A stretch of 64,000 bases of DNA from Emergencia sp. 1XD21-10. GTDB lineage: Bacteria; Bacillota; Clostridia; Peptostreptococcales; Anaerovoracaceae. The position numbers and the translations under genes were made by a program. Shown here piece by piece: positions 14,310 to 43,439 of this stretch (positions are counted from its first letter, which is position 1; each line of letters opens with the position of its first letter). The stretch spans positions 62,001 through 126,000 of the forward strand of contig NZ_QWEQ01000003.1 in assembly GCF_009936045.1 (NCBI RefSeq), given 5' to 3'. Below the pieces are notes generated by a model. The model worked only from the letters and a program-made list of their open reading frames with translations, was not told the DNA's origin and did not search any database.

Positions 14310-14708
14310 TTACTTTACCTCCTGCTCCTTTTTCATATAACGGTCTTGTGTCTGGTGATAATACCCGAGAATAAACATACCCTGTTCCTCTAAGTTCAGC
14401 CGCTTAGGATAGGCGATTCCTTGATCATCCGATACAGAGAATTTATCCTGCAGTGTACCTAATTTCTGTTCAAACCAAATTTCAGTGCTTTTATTCCTTA
14501 CTGCAATCTTTTTCATATGACTGTTTTTCAATTTCAGTAAAACAGGAAAAATGGATGCTGGCATAGCACAAGCCGAATTAAAATACCGATCTTTAATTGT
14601 AGCATTCACCTTACCCGGCTTATTGGATTCCTCCTGAATATGCTCAAGCACCGCAAACATCCTTCCTAGATTATATGGGACATTTTTACTGTTTTCATTC
14701 AGACTCAC
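14310..14708 (-). CDS. cas11c: Cas11c, small Cascade subunit made from an internal start in cas8c
   Basis: Type I-C systems are known to make Cas11 by internal translation of cas8c. Here a perfect AGGAGG (14722-14717) stands 8 nt ahead of an in-frame GTG (14708-14706). It would give a 132-residue helical protein starting (M)SLNENSKNVPYNLGRMF and sharing the cas8c stop. Length and position agree with described Cas11c proteins. In-frame ATGs nearby lack such a ribosome site. Confidence 0.7.
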   Translation of the reverse strand: MSLNENSKNVPYNLGRMFAVLEHIQEESNKPGKVNATIKDRYFNSACAMPASIFPVLLKLKNSHMKKIAVRNKSTEIWFEQKLGTLQDKFSVSDDQGIAYPKRLNLEEQGMFILGYYHQTQDRYMKKEQEVK

Positions 14709-16103
14709 TGTAAGTTCCTCCTCTTCTGTTACCCTTGTATTTCGCATAAGGTATGCTTTGATAATTGCTGCACGTCCTCGTGTGATTTTATAAATACCTG
14801 CGTTGCTGTCATCCTGGTCAGCCCGTATTCTCTGCAATACTGCCTGATAAAGACTCTCCGGATAACGTCCGCCCGATAAAATCGCTCGAAACGAATTCCC
14901 TCCTATATGATCTGGCGCCTTTTTATCCTTTGACTTCTTATTTGCGATTTCCTGCAGCATTCTCCATACACCGAGATGTTTAACAATATCGCTGGCGGGT
15001 CGAATCACTTCCATTCGATCATAATGTGTCTTCAAATGGCTCAAAATGTTTCCAAATCCATCTTGATAGAAGAAGCGTACTGACAGTCTTCCCGCATTAG
15101 GTCCAAGACCCAAAATGCAAAACCTTTGTTCAGGATTGATAGCTTCTAAATCTGCATCAACATCGACGCTCCATCCCTTCTCCAAGTTTTTAAAAATACC
15201 AGCTACAATTTCCTGATTATCTGCGGTAGGCTCTATACAATCAGCAAAACTTTTTTGATAAATTTCCTCTCCACTTTCTGCCCAGTAGACAACCATAGTG
15301 GTTCCTATGATACTTCTATAGTCTCTATTGCTGATCAAGTAATTCAAAGCAGTTGTATAAGCGTATGCCGCATATTCGCTCACCGGTGCATTATAACTCT
15401 GCTCCTTTCCATAGGAGCAAAATGCCGGTGCATTAAATCCTACTAGCGATGCTCCGCTTGATTGTGCGCCGGGCACGCCTTTTATCTTCCCGTGTATTCT
15501 CGCAATAGGTGCACGCTTGCCCGTTACAAGACAGATTCCTTCCTTACCGCCATCTTTCTCATGGTAGGCTTTTTCCCAGGCATTCTGGATTTCATCATCC
15601 TCCTGTATAAAACGACCGTCTAATTGAAAAACCAAATTAGATGCAGCACACAATTCTTCATAATTGGCTGCAATCACCGGATGTTCCTCAGCATGCTCCG
15701 GATTCCAGCTTTGAAAAAAATTCTTTACCGCTTCGGCGGCTTCAGAGTGAACATCCGCTAAATCCTCTGTATGTAACTTTTTTGAAGCAAGAAAGCAATT
15801 TCTTGCTCGATCTGGTTTTCCCTTCGTATCTATGCCTAGAAAGTAGCTGACATTGTCACAGAGAAAATTGGGAGATATTCCGCTGGTCTTGACGCCCTGT
15901 TCCGGGACTTTGAGCAGAGATGGAATTTCCACAGTTTTTTTGCCACGCAGTTGCTCAGTTGTCAGCGTTACAATGCCCTTAAGTTCGCCGTTTGCTGCAA
16001 TATCCAAAGCTGCTGCAACTTTTGCCTGACACCATCCCGGTGCAGTTACCTTGCCTTGCTCTTCTAAGGCTTTATAATATTCCACCAATGACTGCAGTAT
16101 CAT
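14310..16103 (-). CDS. cas8c: Cas8c (Csd1), large Cascade subunit
   Basis: 597 residues, matching type I-C Cas8c. This subunit recognises the PAM and recruits Cas3 to the opened target. The N-terminal part begins MILQSLVEYYKALEEQGKV, typical of Csd1. The C-terminal helical part doubles as a separately translated Cas11c (see that entry). It overlaps cas5 by 4 nt (ATGA). Confidence 0.95.
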   Translation of the reverse strand: MILQSLVEYYKALEEQGKVTAPGWCQAKVAAALDIAANGELKGIVTLTTEQLRGKKTVEIPSLLKVPEQGVKTSGISPNFLCDNVSYFLGIDTKGKPDRARNCFLASKKLHTEDLADVHSEAAEAVKNFFQSWNPEHAEEHPVIAANYEELCAASNLVFQLDGRFIQEDDEIQNAWEKAYHEKDGGKEGICLVTGKRAPIARIHGKIKGVPGAQSSGASLVGFNAPAFCSYGKEQSYNAPVSEYAAYAYTTALNYLISNRDYRSIIGTTMVVYWAESGEEIYQKSFADCIEPTADNQEIVAGIFKNLEKGWSVDVDADLEAINPEQRFCILGLGPNAGRLSVRFFYQDGFGNILSHLKTHYDRMEVIRPASDIVKHLGVWRMLQEIANKKSKDKKAPDHIGGNSFRAILSGGRYPESLYQAVLQRIRADQDDSNAGIYKITRGRAAIIKAYLMRNTRVTEEEELTVSLNENSKNVPYNLGRMFAVLEHIQEESNKPGKVNATIKDRYFNSACAMPASIFPVLLKLKNSHMKKIAVRNKSTEIWFEQKLGTLQDKFSVSDDQGIAYPKRLNLEEQGMFILGYYHQTQDRYMKKEQEVK

Positions 16104-16756
16104 CGAACCACCTCACAATCAGTAAGATCGAGCATACCACCATTTAATACGGCTCTGAAAAACAATGGCTGTATTTCTTCCCCGGTATAGTCAAAGTCGA
16201 AAAACATATAGCCCAAATCCCTGTCTTCAGCAGAATAAGCTGTATCAACCCCCTGCTCCTCGTACAGTTCAAATTTTGCCGGAAACTCTCTGCACCCAAA
16301 ATAAGGTTGATGATAGCACTTTCCGCTGCGCAGCCTGCGCATCATAATATCCTTAAATTTCCCCGGATTATCCCCTACATTTGCTTTTTCTGTCATCTCA
16401 AAATGCGCATCTATAACATAGTCAACATCTTTGAGCAAAACGGCTGCACGCTGTGCAATATCTTCTTTCGCATTGATATACAGAGGCTTCGCATTTCCGT
16501 TCATCACTGATAACACATTGGTGTGCTGTATTTTACTCTGTAGCTCATTTCTCCGCACGCTGGTAAAGGCAATAGGCTTTCGCACGTAAATCTTGTCAAT
16601 GACCCATCGCATGCCCGGATGCCAATAGATTGCTTCTAAGATGCCCCTTGCTGCAGAAGGTGTTATCACATCGTAGCTGCAACGTTCCACTTTCATTTCC
16701 GGTCTGGAAAACAGGGCATAATCGCCCCACACATGTACTCGTACGCCATGACTCAT
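16100..16756 (-). CDS. cas5c: Cas5c (Cas5d), crRNA-processing nuclease of type I-C
   Basis: 218 residues with the N-terminal RAMP fold (GVRVHVWGDYALFSRPEMKVERCSYDVITPSAARGILEAI). In type I-C, which lacks Cas6, this protein cuts pre-crRNA at the repeat hairpin and stays on the 5' handle. It lies 24 bp after cas3 and overlaps cas8c by 4 nt. Confidence 0.95.
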   Translation of the reverse strand: MSHGVRVHVWGDYALFSRPEMKVERCSYDVITPSAARGILEAIYWHPGMRWVIDKIYVRKPIAFTSVRRNELQSKIQHTNVLSVMNGNAKPLYINAKEDIAQRAAVLLKDVDYVIDAHFEMTEKANVGDNPGKFKDIMMRRLRSGKCYHQPYFGCREFPAKFELYEEQGVDTAYSAEDRDLGYMFFDFDYTGEEIQPLFFRAVLNGGMLDLTDCEVVR

Positions 16757-16780
16757 AAATTTTCACTCCTTTCCTTTATT

Positions 16781-18934
16781 TTAATAGTAAAGACCAATTC
16801 CCATCTCTGCATTTAGCTGTATCCCGCAGCCTTCATGATAATATTCCGCCTGCTCTAATACGGCAAAGTCGTCAAACAAAGGTGTAATCATGCCTTTTTC
16901 CCATAGCGTTCTGTAATCATTTTCGTATACACTGATACAATACTTCCCTGCTTTTCTCATTAGCGGCAAGCAATACTGATCGTCTGCAAATTTTTCCGCA
17001 ATTTCCTTTGCCTCATCTTCCAACGCAATGAGTACAGTCTTTGTATCCTGTTCAATGAGGTGAAACTCTTTTGCTACTGTTGCAAAAGGAAAGTTATAAC
17101 TCCTAGTACCTTTTTCAAATGCCTCTACTACCTCATGCTTGTCCAAAAAATTTCTTCTGAAATCGTATAGTCTTGCAAAATAATCGTAAATTGCTTCCAA
17201 ATCTGTAATATCTTCATATTTTCTTACAATCTGTTCTGCCACATCTCTCATCTGCTTCATACTGGATGGAAGTTTTCCTCGCTCCTGGCTTTCCAATTGA
17301 AAGAAAACAGTTTTACACTGTTCTGCCGACAGCATTCCTTCTCGATTGCACCGTCCTGCCGCCTGAATGATGGAATCAATTCCTGCCAGTTCCCTAAACA
17401 CAAAAGGGAAGTCCAGATCTACACCCGCCTCAACCAGGCTGGTTGCGATTAATCTGCACGGTTTTCCTGCCATCAGCTTTTCTCTTACTGTTTTCAAAAT
17501 CCGCTGCCGGTGTGCGGGATACATGTATGTAGATAAGTGATATATATCCTCTTCACCCTCTTCTAACAAACGATGATAGATTTCCTGCACATCCATTCTT
17601 CTATTCAGAATACAGAGGATCTGCTTTTTATTCTTCAGTTCATCAAGCAAATGCGCCTTTGTTATGATACCGCCGTTTTCCACATTGGTACGTTTAAAAA
17701 ATGCATACATGTTGTGCACGTCTGGGCAGATTTCCTGTACATTTTTAGAAAGTTCTTCCGGAAAATATTTCATCAGCGCCGGCTGAGTTGCCGTACACAA
17801 AACCACCGTACACCCATAATTGTAAACCAGCTCGCTAATTGCCTGTATGCATGGCTTCAAATAATCTGTCGGGAGCATTTGCACCTCATCAAAGATAATG
17901 ACGCTCTTTGCCAAATTATGTAATTTTCTGCACTTGGACGGCTTATTGGAAAATAACGATTCAAAAAACTGAACATTGGTTGTCACGACAACCGGCTTGT
18001 CATAGTTTTCTGCGGCCAGTCGGTGCTTTGCTTCTTCTTGCTCGTCTTCAAAAGAGATATTGCAATGATCCTCCAACACATTTTCAGCTCCTAAAATCTC
18101 CCGAAACACCTGCGCATTTTGTTCAATGATAGAAGTGAAAGGAATTACGTAGATGATTCGTTCCAGCTCATGTGTCACTCCATGGCGAAGCGCAAATCCA
18201 AGAGAAGATACAGTCTTTCCGCCGCCAGTAGGCACTGTGAGCGTATAGATACCCTGTTCTTCCTTTCCTTTCTCCAGACAAGCTTTCAAAATCTCTGTTC
18301 TTTTGCCATTGACTGTTTCGCATGCCTGATTGTCGAGCCAGGGTTTAATATGATCATCATATCTTTCTGTAAGCGTCTGCAATGATTCACCGCTTGATTC
18401 TCTGAAAACTCCCTCATTCATGAATTTTTCTGTATTCAGAAAGTCCGCATCTACTAGACACGAAAATAACATTCTAGTCCAGAAAGATATAGAAAATCCA
18501 CCCTTTCCTAGGATCCTCAGCGGTGGTGGCACCAAGCCCCTTATCTCGATTTCTTCTTTAAATTGGCTATAGTCTTCAACTGGTTTCCGTAACCTTCCCT
18601 GTAATGTTGGAATTCCCGCTCCATCTGACGTCGTTCCTCCATCTGGAATTCCGCCGTGATGTCCGGCAACACAATATGCTGCGCAGTAGTTTAAACCGCT
18701 GCCTTTTCCATAAAGTTCTTTTGCGCCGGCTGTAGAATGGTCGACCCTCGCTCCGCCAAGCAGTCTTTTCTGAAAAGCATTGGAATATTTCCCCAGATCA
18801 TGAGCCTTTGCCGTCTCCGCTGCTTGTGCACTGGAATAGAATGCCTTCGCAAAATCTCCTGCAAGCTCAGCAGTTTCTAAAAGATGCTCTTTCACAGACT
18901 GTTCTCTTTTTCCATCTTCACTGATGTGTGCCAA
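16781..18934 (-). CDS. cas3: Cas3 nuclease-helicase (type I-C)
   Basis: 717 residues. The N-terminal HD nuclease domain has AKAHDLGKYSNAFQ and later GHHGG. The SF2 helicase domain has PTGGGKT (Walker A), IIFDEVQML (DEAD-box position) and ATSLVEAGVDLDFP (motif V), with QAAGRCNREG as motif VI. It degrades the target strand after Cascade binding. The start is uncertain: a TTG at 18934 has no good ribosome site. An AUU at 18952, six codons upstream in frame, follows AGAGGTGA and would keep the family-like YLAHIS opening. Confidence 0.95.
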   Translation of the reverse strand: MAHISEDGKREQSVKEHLLETAELAGDFAKAFYSSAQAAETAKAHDLGKYSNAFQKRLLGGARVDHSTAGAKELYGKGSGLNYCAAYCVAGHHGGIPDGGTTSDGAGIPTLQGRLRKPVEDYSQFKEEIEIRGLVPPPLRILGKGGFSISFWTRMLFSCLVDADFLNTEKFMNEGVFRESSGESLQTLTERYDDHIKPWLDNQACETVNGKRTEILKACLEKGKEEQGIYTLTVPTGGGKTVSSLGFALRHGVTHELERIIYVIPFTSIIEQNAQVFREILGAENVLEDHCNISFEDEQEEAKHRLAAENYDKPVVVTTNVQFFESLFSNKPSKCRKLHNLAKSVIIFDEVQMLPTDYLKPCIQAISELVYNYGCTVVLCTATQPALMKYFPEELSKNVQEICPDVHNMYAFFKRTNVENGGIITKAHLLDELKNKKQILCILNRRMDVQEIYHRLLEEGEEDIYHLSTYMYPAHRQRILKTVREKLMAGKPCRLIATSLVEAGVDLDFPFVFRELAGIDSIIQAAGRCNREGMLSAEQCKTVFFQLESQERGKLPSSMKQMRDVAEQIVRKYEDITDLEAIYDYFARLYDFRRNFLDKHEVVEAFEKGTRSYNFPFATVAKEFHLIEQDTKTVLIALEDEAKEIAEKFADDQYCLPLMRKAGKYCISVYENDYRTLWEKGMITPLFDDFAVLEQAEYYHEGCGIQLNAEMGIGLYY

Positions 18935-23850: not shown

Positions 23851-23908
23851 TCGTTTTCCTCCTATTAATTAAAGATCTGTTCCAGATCACTTGCTTTGCT
23901 GCAGCCTG

Positions 23909-23943
23909 TTGACAAAAATGTCCTATTTCGCGAAATTTGTCAA
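23909..23943. repeat. Nested inverted repeats between the T-box and porC
   Basis: Outer arms TTGACAAA (23909-23916) and TTTGTCAA (23936-23943) enclose the palindrome TTTCGCGAAA (23926-23935). There is no T-run, so this is more likely a protein-binding site or RNA structure than a terminator. An ORF with a TTG start at about 24016 and AGGAG upstream crosses it (about 58 codons, overlapping the porC start). I do not trust it as a gene. Confidence 0.4.
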
Positions 23944-24036
23944 TGTCGCTCGCTATGAGGCGACGCTTCGCAAGGTGCTTTTCTTGAAACATACGGAAAT
24001 ATCGAAGACCCAATATTTCTCCTATGTCATAAAAAA

Positions 24037-24315
24037 CTCCGTCCTGTATCAGGACGGAGATATAAAATCTTCGCTTAACCACCTGCTACAACATACCATC
24101 ATATGTTCTTCCGATTACGGGGAAGGCCCGTCAGCACTTACTCAACCGCCGCATTTATTAACACAGGTTAGTCTTTCAGCCCTGCAACTCAGGAGTGATA
24201 TTCAATCTATGCCTACATTCAGTACCGGGCTTTCACCATCCCCGGCTCGCTCTTACCTTTTTGGCGTAAATCTACTGTCTCCGTCAAAGTCTTTGGTTCA
24301 TATGAAATTTAATTC
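24037..24315 (-). promoter_or_regulatory. T-box leader (tRNA-sensing attenuator) of the por operon
   Basis: On the minus strand the RNA has a T-box Stem I: AGCGAGCCGGGGATGGTGAAAG, then GAATATCACTCC and CTGAGTTGC. Next comes a T-box sequence variant AGGTGGTTAAGCG (24084-24072). It ends in a strong terminator hairpin (24037-24059, 10-bp arms, TAT loop, then six T). The likely specifier is ATC (24199-24197), i.e. isoleucine, by its place before ACTCC; TAT (Tyr), one base earlier, is the alternative. The UGGU of the T-box fits a tRNA with A at position 73, as in tRNA-Ile. Uncharged tRNA would allow read-through into porCDAB. Confidence 0.85.
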
Positions 24316-24321
24316 ATGACT

Positions 24322-24350
24322 ATTCTACCTTTTGGCCAGCAGAATGTCAA
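24322..24350 (-). promoter_or_regulatory. Promoter of the T-box/por transcript
   Basis: Minus strand TTGACA (24350-24345), 17-bp spacer, TAGAAT (24327-24322). A start near 24315 would place Stem I about 75 nt into the transcript. Confidence 0.75.
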
Positions 24351-27231: not shown

Positions 27232-28455
27232 TTATCCAATAAGCATATATAATAAGTGTGCGCTGACACCAGCAATCAGACCGCCGATTGTATGGCAGAG
27301 AATTGCCTTTCCTGTCAATTCTCTGAATCTCAAAGAATCCATCATCGCAACGTGCGTACTCAGATAACCACTCCAACACATGCACATCGCTGTAAAAACT
27401 GCGATATCATTACCAGAAGCCAGACCATCTGCTACTAAATTCGGCACCAGTCCAATGGCAGCACCCGCAGCGCCCAGCGCCGTAATTGGCACAGAAATCC
27501 CTTCTGCCGCAGTAAAGCCAAACAATGGGGTCAGAATAAATTCCACTTTTTCCGCAAGCCACGGCAAAAATCCAACGCCTTCATAAGCTGCACCAGTAAA
27601 AGTTCCATCAGCAGAAGGTCCGCCAGTCAGCATCATCACGATAGTACAGATGATAAGCACGCCAGGAATAATGGCAAATCCCATAGATACGCCATTTTTT
27701 CCGCCTTCCAGCATAGCACCCATGAAACGTTCACCCAGGCTGCCCTCACGAATCATTCTTTCGTCAAGGGAAATCTGACCACAACCGGATTTCACATCGA
27801 CTTCCGCTTCTGTTCCGTAAATTTTCTTTGTATGGCGAAGCATTAATCTTGCACTGACAATACTGCCAATGACTGCACCCAGATTACCAATCAGAGCCGC
27901 CACCACAAAGCTTTCGCCTGCCGGTGCCTTAATCCCAATCATAAAGGTAGTAATAATCATGCCCATACCAAAGGCCGTCCCAATGTTAGTCAATGCCGGA
28001 AGCTGATATTTTTTGAAATATCTTCTGAAATTATCGTCCTCTGCCAGAGATAAAATTGCTGGATTATCGGACAAATAAGTAGTAACTACGCCTACTATGC
28101 TTGCGCCTGGAAGCCCGTAAAGAGGCTTCATTAAAGGTGACAAAATTTTATTAATCGCTGCTACAACGCCGAATTCCGTTAATAATCCAGCAGCCGCACC
28201 AGCAAGTACGGCGATTGCCATAATATAAAATACCGTGTTCAGTAAGAGGTCATAGGCTGTATTCATCAGCGTATTCATCATATTGACAGTTCCCATGGTA
28301 ATTCCAAGGTACCCAAATATCACGCCAAAGATTCCTAAAAATACTAATGTTTCCAGACTAAACGCATTTTTCACCCGGGGCTTTCTATTTTCCACAATTT
28401 TCATCTGTGGTTTTGTCAGCTGCGGTTCTCTCTGCACAGATAAATTCTCCTGCAT
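27232..28455 (-). CDS. Nucleoside-recognition (Gate) domain membrane protein, CD0519/CD1768-like
   Basis: 407 residues, about 10-11 helices. Gate-domain style segments include GLPGASIVGVVTTYLSDNPAILSLAEDDNF and a mirrored PLFGFTAAEGISVPITALGAAGAAIGLVP. The overall pattern matches a family of conserved Firmicutes membrane proteins of unknown substrate. The start at 28455 (MQENLSVQREP) was chosen over an upstream in-frame codon because GGAAGGAA precedes it. The divergent LysR gene 143 bp away is its probable regulator. Confidence 0.75.
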   Translation of the reverse strand: MQENLSVQREPQLTKPQMKIVENRKPRVKNAFSLETLVFLGIFGVIFGYLGITMGTVNMMNTLMNTAYDLLLNTVFYIMAIAVLAGAAAGLLTEFGVVAAINKILSPLMKPLYGLPGASIVGVVTTYLSDNPAILSLAEDDNFRRYFKKYQLPALTNIGTAFGMGMIITTFMIGIKAPAGESFVVAALIGNLGAVIGSIVSARLMLRHTKKIYGTEAEVDVKSGCGQISLDERMIREGSLGERFMGAMLEGGKNGVSMGFAIIPGVLIICTIVMMLTGGPSADGTFTGAAYEGVGFLPWLAEKVEFILTPLFGFTAAEGISVPITALGAAGAAIGLVPNLVADGLASGNDIAVFTAMCMCWSGYLSTHVAMMDSLRFRELTGKAILCHTIGGLIAGVSAHLLYMLIG

Positions 28456-28598
28456 TACAAATTCCTTCCTTCTTTTCACTTTCTTTTTTATCTGTCTTGT
28501 ATTTTTCTCTCTCATACTGTATCATAAAAGTATAAATCACAAAAGCGAATTTTTTTCATGTTTTACATTATAAAATCAGATATATAGGAGTGAAAACG

Positions 28599-42295: not shown

Positions 42296-42547
42296 TCAGA
42301 CAGTTTCGCACACTTGACAAGGGTTCATTTCATTATCAAGCCATTCATCAAAACTCTTTTTTGATATGCGGATATTTCCGCCTATGCGGACGCTGTGGAA
42401 TACCCCCGATTTGACAAGGCTGTATGCGGCGTTCCTGCCTATGCCCAAAATGTCCTGTATCTCATCCACCGTATAAATCCGTTTCTCATACGGCAACGGC
42501 ATCTCTGTTTCTTCCTTATTTAATGCTGCAATCTTATCTTCAAACAT
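42296..42547 (-). CDS. Excisionase-type HTH_17 protein coupled to mazF (HTH-A)
   Basis: 83 residues with one HTH_17 unit (RIYTVDEIQDILGIGRNAAYSLVKSGVFHSVRIGGNIRISKKSFDEWLDNEM). The start at 42547 (MFEDKIAAL) follows GGAGGGTGG and overlaps the mazF stop by 8 nt. Because no MazE-like gene is present, this protein is a candidate antitoxin or repressor for mazF; that is inference. Confidence 0.75.
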   Translation of the reverse strand: MFEDKIAALNKEETEMPLPYEKRIYTVDEIQDILGIGRNAAYSLVKSGVFHSVRIGGNIRISKKSFDEWLDNEMNPCQVCETV

Positions 42548-42923
42548 TGTCCACCCTCCTGTCTGCTTTCTGCACATTCTTTACGCCAATGCTGATAAGC
42601 AGGGGATTCGTGATTTCTTCCATACACCGCTCATCAAGCTGTGCCATCCTCTCTTTCAGCCGTTTCTTATCTATTGTGCGTATCTGTTCAAATAAAATAA
42701 TGGAATCAGCGGGAAGTCCTGCAATCCCATCTAAACAGAAATGTGTCGGCAGTTTTCCCTTTTTCGGTCTGCTTGTAATAGCGGCGATAATGACTGTCGG
42801 GCTGAACCTATTGCCCGTATTGTTGGATATGATAAGTACGGGTCGTGTGCCGCCCTGTTCTGAACCGATAACGGGATTCAGCTCTGCGTAATAAATGTCA
42901 CCACGCTTTATAATTCTATCCAT
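42540..42923 (-). CDS. mazF: MazF/PemK-family endoribonuclease toxin
   Basis: 127 residues. Family motifs: IIKRGDIYYAELNPVIGSEQGGTRPVLIISNN near the N terminus with the catalytic-type Arg, then IIAAITSRPKKGKLPTH with the conserved Thr/Ser. The C-terminal helix (EERMAQLD-like) is diverged. MazF cleaves mRNA at short sequence motifs. A classical antitoxin is not adjacent; the next gene encodes an HTH_17 protein overlapping by 8 nt. Confidence 0.9.
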   Translation of the reverse strand: MDRIIKRGDIYYAELNPVIGSEQGGTRPVLIISNNTGNRFSPTVIIAAITSRPKKGKLPTHFCLDGIAGLPADSIILFEQIRTIDKKRLKERMAQLDERCMEEITNPLLISIGVKNVQKADRRVDNV

Positions 42924-43439
42924 AAGTGTCTGACCTCCTATCTGGATTTAGGCAGGTATATCCTGCCTATGTAGCAGCCAGACGCAGGGAAGTATTTAAG
43001 GTCGGAAGAGCATAAAACAAAACTCTGTTTCCATAGACCGCCCTGCATCTGGCTTTATGATAAAAAAGCATTTTCTATTTGTCCTCGACACCCCGAAAAT
43101 GCAAATGCGTTGCTCACGCAGGGAAATCGCCAAACGGTCAGCAGCGAACTGACGCCACGGGAGTTGCACCCCAACTGTCGGTCTGACAGAGCCGCCCAAT
43201 GCTAACATTCAAGACGGGAGTACCATTATTCTCTTTGTGGGTCATGGCGAAATCGGGAGCTGCCCGATATTTTGAGTCGGTATTTATCCGCTCACCACCT
43301 TTCATCGCTTTCTGCTTATCGGCAGGTCATGGCGTACCGCTGCACACGCTTATGCTCATCACAATCACAAAGAGGAAGTATTTGACGAATGAGTATTCAG
43401 TTGTCAAAGAGCTGTCCCGTTCTCGTTGAGTAAAGAAAA
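42924..43439. other. Structured gap between mazF and the sigma-like gene
   Basis: About 515 bp with no convincing gene. It has CTCTTTGTG (43231-43239) paired with CACAAAGAG (43368-43376), two direct GTCATGGCG copies (about 43243 and 43327), and short hairpins such as CTGTC/GACAG and TCGGG/CCCGA. It likely holds the promoter of the mazF-HTH-int run and could encode a structured RNA. Confidence 0.35.

Follow-up and report, generated by a model that had tools for sequence, protein, structure and literature searches.

An isoleucine-type T-box leader precedes porCDAB in Emergencia and other Clostridia and probably serves isoleucine synthesis

In the window (the whole stretch of DNA that was analysed, 64,000 nt of Emergencia sp. 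1XD21-10), an operon encoding all four subunits of a 2-oxoacid:ferredoxin oxidoreductase is preceded on the minus strand by a T-box leader with an isoleucine (AUC) specifier, and this arrangement recurs at por loci of several genera. We consider it probable that a tRNA-Ile T-box attenuates porCDAB and that the encoded enzyme carboxylates propionyl-CoA to 2-oxobutyrate for isoleucine synthesis.

Architecture of the por leader

An earlier note on this DNA had described a T-box at positions 24037-24350 leading into porCDAB, and both the element and its coordinates proved correct. The Rfam T-box covariance model (RF00230) fits the minus strand end to end at 24296-24047, from Stem I to the antiterminator (model positions 1-219 complete, 65.2 bits, E=6.4e-14, E-value mode), with a promoter-like site and a terminator flanking it and the four por genes downstream. 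The leader is absent from the standard Rfam scan because its score lies below the curated RF00230 gathering threshold of 93 bits. Six T-boxes were detected in the host genome, five of which, including that of ileS (70.1 bits), scored below the same threshold.

A sigma-70-like promoter (TTGACA-17-TAGAAT; 24350-24322, minus strand) matches 11 of 12 consensus positions; since a single site of this type in the sequence compares with a mean of 1.2 in shuffles, such a site represents no evidence by itself. The terminator is better evidence than the promoter hexamers. Folding and pattern search identified an intrinsic terminator at 24059-24031 (minus strand), consisting of a 10-pair hairpin (24059-24037) and a T-run, and the last 70 nt of the leader exhibited a fold z-score of -2.48 relative to shuffles, with 4 of 200 shuffles folding equally well.

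Sequence and Rfam alignment place the UGGU of the T-box sequence at 24081-24078 (minus strand), corresponding to the bulge that in known T-boxes pairs with the NCCA end of the tRNA. The GGUGGU core is present in the T-box sequence of the window, AGGUGGUUAAGCG, and is invariant across 23 aligned por leaders, whereas the flanks of this sequence differ from the RF00230 consensus. The strand CGUCCU (24056-24051, minus strand), assigned from the Rfam alignment, covariation and the hairpin, is common to two mutually exclusive structures: it pairs with AGG and GCG in the antiterminator, or is taken up by the terminator hairpin. In the alignment of the window and 22 relatives, pairs of Stem I, of the pre-antiterminator stem and of the antiterminator were shown to vary on both sides with pairing retained. 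Such double-sided changes affect 4 of the 11 predicted Stem I pairs (columns 18-107, 55-75, 57-73 and 58-72) and antiterminator columns such as 140-171.

Between the terminator and porC, a 180 nt stretch (23851-24030) contains an inverted repeat, TTGACAAA...TTTTGTCAA. Among the fetched loci, blastn (E 0.01) retrieved only the window's own copies of this stretch.

The specifier codon

The por leader reads GAA-U-AUC-AC, which places AUC (24199-24197, minus strand) in the register of the ileS T-box of the host genome. In four other host T-boxes, the codon directly 5' of the conserved AC agrees with the downstream gene: ileS has AUC, leuA has CUC, and UGG precedes both a trpB-like gene and a ligase remnant with trpS behind it (the identities of leuA, the ligase remnant and trpS were checked, while ileS and trpB were named by eye). 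The specifier of a valS leader (L002) was unreadable by this AC-register rule. Alternative readings of the por specifier as UAU or UCA were ruled out by the register with the other host leaders and by conservation.

The isoleucine specifier proposed in the earlier note was borne out across the data set, as AUC follows GAAN in all 62 por T-box leaders, where N is represented by all four letters. These comprise 23 leaders from Rfam and 39 retrieved by a model trained on those 23, a procedure that may bias the 39 towards AUC. The specifier pattern misread four of the 39, while reading by eye returned AUC in 39/39.

As a control, 391 genomes of the class (Clostridia) were scanned with a Stem I model for which por leaders had been the sole training set, and 163 of them contained a match at E 1e-8. 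The best 30 loci were read (the window's own and 29 others, with genes counted in either orientation); in the 29, the specifier pattern caught nothing in two and several candidates in some. Homology to ileS was found in 25 of the 29 (24 clear, one, L218, weak at 32% identity), and the remaining loci contained a citramalate-synthase-like gene (1/29) or, by eye, a methyltransferase-like frame (3/29). The retrieval of ileS leaders by a model trained on por links leaders of this type to isoleucine by a line of evidence that does not depend on por. Because of this retrieval and the 62/62 AUC specifiers, an isoleucine-tRNA switch on por is well supported; as a regulator the T-box is ordinary, and what is unusual is its target.

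The citramalate-synthase-like case (L191, genome G503) carries an AUC leader before a frame for which citramalate synthase is the best model (NF042433, 597 bits over 443 residues, against a cut-off of 950, with the frame ending at the edge of the locus). At the three methyltransferase loci (L208, L210 and L215), AUC T-box-like leaders are located upstream of a frame that by eye resembles a class I methyltransferase.

Conservation and evolution of the T-box-por pair

A PorC search of 197 genomes of the family returned matches in 83 at E 1e-10, 75 of which were taken as por (>=52% identity). Leaders were read at 50 of the family loci, of which 30 were the highest in similarity and 20 were chosen by hand, mostly from more complete genomes, and a T-box was located 5' of por at 30: the window's own, 22 of the 29 others by Rfam and 7 more by the Stem I model, including one (L033) at which the Rfam scan had no match. 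No T-box was detected at the other 20 of the 50, one of which (L121) has just 169 nt 5' of porC and is not judgeable.

Among named organisms, the best 80 of at least 549 matches included 32 loci with a T-box (E <=1.3e-12; the next match was at 0.44). Records among these 32 derive from Emergencia, Anaerovorax, Butyricicoccus, Agathobaculum, Intestinibacillus, Syntrophomonas and Desulfoscipio, and the closest named relative among the matches listed is an Emergencia with 97% PorA identity. At the remaining 48 of the 80, at least four of which (L060, L080, L083 and L113) are cut upstream, no T-box was found; loci without it include those of Clostridium drakei, C. thailandense, two Fusibacter, Dethiosulfatibacter and many Lachnospiraceae records. 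There is some overlap within the 62 T-box loci, because some named loci are family contigs (for instance L037/L008 and L045/L018), so that not every locus counts as independent. A coarse grouping of open frames, which split por itself over several clusters, revealed no conserved neighbour gene beyond por that would name the substrate at these 80 loci, the best of at least 549.

In a PorA tree of 129 sequences (129 of the 130 rows, L133 being missing; a few rows scored as without a T-box are loci cut upstream), 61 of the 62 T-box rows fell into a single group of 91 rows (SH-aLRT 91), which also contains 30 rows without a T-box. T-box presence required 9 state changes on this tree, compared with a mean of 43 in shuffles; the simple reading would be one gain of the T-box with several losses.

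One por leader (L128, genome G035) was seen by eye to lack Stem I while retaining the T-box and terminator end. In genome G035, matches exceeding the model cut-offs were obtained for threonine deaminase as well as for citramalate synthase.

The Por enzyme

The operon is encoded on the minus strand in the order C-D-A-B. The gamma subunit gene porC (23850-23263; TIGR02175, 207.5 bits, cut-off 81.1) and the ferredoxin-like delta subunit gene porD (23239-22937; TIGR02179, 93.2 bits, cut-off 60.05) are followed by porA (alpha subunit, 22936-21749) and porB (beta, TPP-binding subunit, 21746-20814), the best matches of which are pyruvate synthase models (474.9 bits, cut-off 550, and 352.4 bits, cut-off 405, respectively). 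PorA and PorB score below the curated cut-offs of every model matched, including the pyruvate synthase equivalogs.

The earlier note had called for a comparison of PorA with characterised pyruvate, 2-oxobutyrate and branched-chain enzymes. Pyruvate-type models were nearer than 2-ketoisovalerate-type models (475 versus 349 bits for PorA, 352 versus 293 bits for PorB), and the nearest solved chains for both subunits belong to pyruvate:ferredoxin oxidoreductase 9bt4, although no residue was found to separate T-box PorA from other PorA, the active-site segment of the aligned PorA rows containing no fixed difference. Pyruvate enzymes conserve a Thr and an Arg that have a role in substrate contact, and Thr31 and Arg109 of PorA align with these residues. 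Position 118 of PorA is an Asn, compared with Trp in 9bt4 and Phe in 7plm; as this Asn is common to 123 of the 129 PorA rows, it is not specific to T-box loci. The host genome encodes three further full-length pyruvate:ferredoxin oxidoreductases, which makes plausible the earlier suggestion that the name pyruvate synthase would be a misnomer.

Isoleucine pathway genes in por genomes

The distribution of ilvC was associated with por (relatedness ignored throughout). The gene is present in 30/30 family genomes with T-box por versus 106/167 others (p 7e-6), in 68/75 por versus 68/122 other genomes (p 1e-7; 197 genomes), and in 30/30 T-box-por versus 17/20 other por genomes (p 0.06).

For ilvA, the comparison covered the 95 genomes whose completeness is known to be at least 90%, with 26 of unknown completeness omitted and relatedness ignored. 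Here, ilvC without an ilvA match over the cut-off was seen in 7 genomes with por and 1 without, and ilvC with ilvA in 29 and 40, respectively (p 0.02). Over all 197 genomes the contrast is weak (18 and 9 without ilvA, 50 and 59 with it; p 0.08). The hand-copied list of ilvA genomes holds 127, compared with 128 in the program tally. Loss of ilvA is not special to T-box por, as the gene is missing in 9/30 T-box-por and 3/20 other por genomes.

Among the seven well-covered por genomes without ilvA, G142 and G174 represent the clean T-box cases. Neither contains an ilvA match at 1e-20 or a citramalate synthase match at 1e-40, and both carry ilvC-ilvD without the ilvA that ends the ilvBNCDA cluster of the host genome; in G174, ilvBN are unlisted among the longest frames chosen, and opposite-strand frames may hide them. 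Conversely, G004 and G093, of the same genus, contain ilvA and no por match. As regards the other five, deaminase matches below the threshold were present in G016 and G050, a citramalate synthase is encoded in G084, and G068 and G082 carry por without a T-box. Matches to TIGR00977 of ~210-237 bits (e.g. in G016 and G082) perhaps represent leuA or another type of citramalate synthase.

The host genome itself keeps ilvA and a complete ilvBNCDA cluster, so that por would constitute an additional route there. A search of 26 genomes for methylmalonyl-CoA mutase gave a single positive, which is not the host genome; propionyl-CoA would thus be derived from outside propionate or by another route. Pyruvate formate-lyase, present over the cut-off in the host genome, G142 and G174, could alternatively make 2-oxobutyrate from propionyl-CoA and formate, by analogy with Escherichia coli, for which this reaction is shown in PMC7476758. 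The same paper argues that some reports of reductive carboxylation may reflect pyruvate formate-lyase.

Proposed mechanism and alternative explanations

Genes under T-box control are expressed more strongly once their cognate tRNA is uncharged, i.e. under starvation. Uncharged tRNA-Ile would thus bind at both the AUC codon and the UGGU bulge, allowing the antiterminator to form and porCDAB to be transcribed, while with charged tRNA-Ile the terminator would form and porCDAB would be switched off by transcription attenuation. PorCDAB would then convert propionyl-CoA, CO2 and reduced ferredoxin to 2-oxobutyrate, which would enter the ilvBNCD pathway to yield isoleucine. From the logic of the regulator and the co-occurrence of genes, we infer that the reductive direction, serving the supply of isoleucine, is the most likely one, as the earlier note had proposed and as we also regard as the best reading: there would be little sense in placing an enzyme that breaks down 2-oxo acids under an isoleucine T-box. 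Of the two reactions named there, 2-oxobutyrate formation is favoured and carboxylation of 2-methylbutyryl-CoA ranks behind it; propionyl-CoA is preferred because of the pyruvate-type scores, the presence of ilvC in 30/30 T-box-por genomes and the lack of both ilvA and citramalate synthase in G142 and G174.

It is unlikely, though well worth considering, that under the same switch the enzyme instead carboxylates 2-methylbutyryl-CoA to 3-methyl-2-oxovalerate, from which transamination alone would yield isoleucine (branched-acid salvage). PMC7356843 names 2-methylbutyrate as a compound from which isoleucine is made in rumen fermentation; such salvage would also explain a separately regulated operon where ilvBNCDA is complete, and loss of ilvA would fit it too. 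However, the enzyme is nearer to the pyruvate than to the 2-ketoisovalerate models, and ilvC accompanies T-box por in 30/30 family genomes, though valine and leucine synthesis require ilvC anyway. That the switch controls an ordinary pyruvate synthase, which would supply pyruvate under isoleucine starvation, seems improbable: the best-scoring models are indeed those of pyruvate synthase subunits and the closest solved chains those of 9bt4, but a switch that reads isoleucine only (62/62) would be odd for a product that feeds valine, leucine and much else, and the host genome has three other full-length pyruvate enzymes.

Members of the 2-oxoacid:ferredoxin oxidoreductase family are reversible and often catabolic in fermenters, which would allow an oxidative enzyme with the T-box acting as a general starvation signal rather than a biosynthetic one. 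We regard this as very improbable, since 2-oxo acids would be burnt during isoleucine shortage and the other T-boxes in these genomes are, by eye, mostly located before synthetases and biosynthetic genes. It is scarcely credible that the leader is a decayed, functionless T-box: its score below the Rfam cut-off and the L128 leader without Stem I would be in keeping with decay, but the AUC, the T-box core and the covarying stems are kept over many genera, and the host ileS T-box likewise scores below the cut-off.

Relation to known systems

The por leader shares with ileS-class T-boxes (RF00230, attenuation type) the Stem I specifier loop, the UGGU, the strand common to antiterminator and terminator, and the AUC register, and differs from them in controlling a 2-oxoacid:ferredoxin oxidoreductase operon and in its sub-gathering score. 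Similarly, the enzyme has the gamma, delta, alpha and beta subunits, the C-D-A-B gene order and the Thr31 and Arg109 counterparts of Por-type pyruvate:ferredoxin oxidoreductase (9bt4), in contrast to which PorA and PorB lie under the curated cut-offs and Asn118 replaces Trp. In the titles and abstract openings of the literature matches listed, no link between a T-box and a 2-oxoacid:ferredoxin oxidoreductase was found.

The reaction and purpose proposed here are those of 2-oxobutyrate:ferredoxin oxidoreductase (2-oxobutyrate synthase, EC 1.2.7.2), which is known biochemically; here, candidate genes and their isoleucine switch are proposed. Ferredoxin-dependent carboxylation of propionate to 2-oxobutyrate is described for several anaerobes in PMC7476758, where the activity is cited to Buchanan 1969, Monticello 1984 and Eikmanns 1983. 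Isoleucine formation from propionate by reductive carboxylation has been known biochemically for decades, with the responsible enzyme partly questioned in PMC7476758, and the conserved isoleucine switch on an oxidoreductase operon provides a candidate gene for the route. The automatic name pyruvate synthase might need correcting, and the finding bears on the use of propionate and branched acids by gut anaerobes.

A related arrangement is the isoleucine T-box on citramalate synthase (L191), where an AUC leader precedes an enzyme that also opens a route to 2-oxobutyrate, although enzyme and route differ. Furthermore, among seven T-box-por genomes in which 30 of 54 T-boxes were read, three (G129, G195 and G047; loci L186, L187 and L188) contain a UUC (Phe) T-box before a phenylacetate-CoA ligase gene (TIGR02155, 572-598 bits, cut-off 646) and, by eye, an ACT-like frame. 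By analogy, this T-box would control a possible step from an outside acid to an amino acid, here with UUC and with no oxidoreductase gene recognised, and T-box-controlled phenylalanine synthesis from phenylacetate is possible at these loci. Together, this suggests that making amino acids reductively from acids of the surroundings, under T-box control, may be a theme in these organisms. Tentatively, and with some reservation, isoleucine-T-box PorCDAB might represent the 2-oxobutyrate:ferredoxin oxidoreductase genes of Clostridia, a dedicated carboxylase for isoleucine synthesis from propionate that replaced threonine deaminase in some lineages, within a wider set of T-box-controlled reductive syntheses that includes phenylalanine.

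For Geobacter, PMC2700814 notes that leuA is preceded by a T-box and, under tryptophan, that iorAB-paaK is preceded by a conserved sequence; PMC2940859 concerns cysteine. The host genome contains, at L148:4134-6184 (contig C22), a Trp (UGG) T-box located before a C-terminal fragment of a PaaK-type ligase, which looks truncated, and trpS.

Other features of the window

Elsewhere on the minus strand of the window, a pemK RNA motif (43155-43229, 43.5 bits) was observed upstream of a frame (42540-42923) that by eye resembles PemK/MazF. CRISPR type I-C genes encoding Cas3, Cas5c and Cas8c are located at 14310-18934, and a membrane protein of the CD0519/CD1768 family (NF049989, 589 bits) is encoded at 27232-28515.
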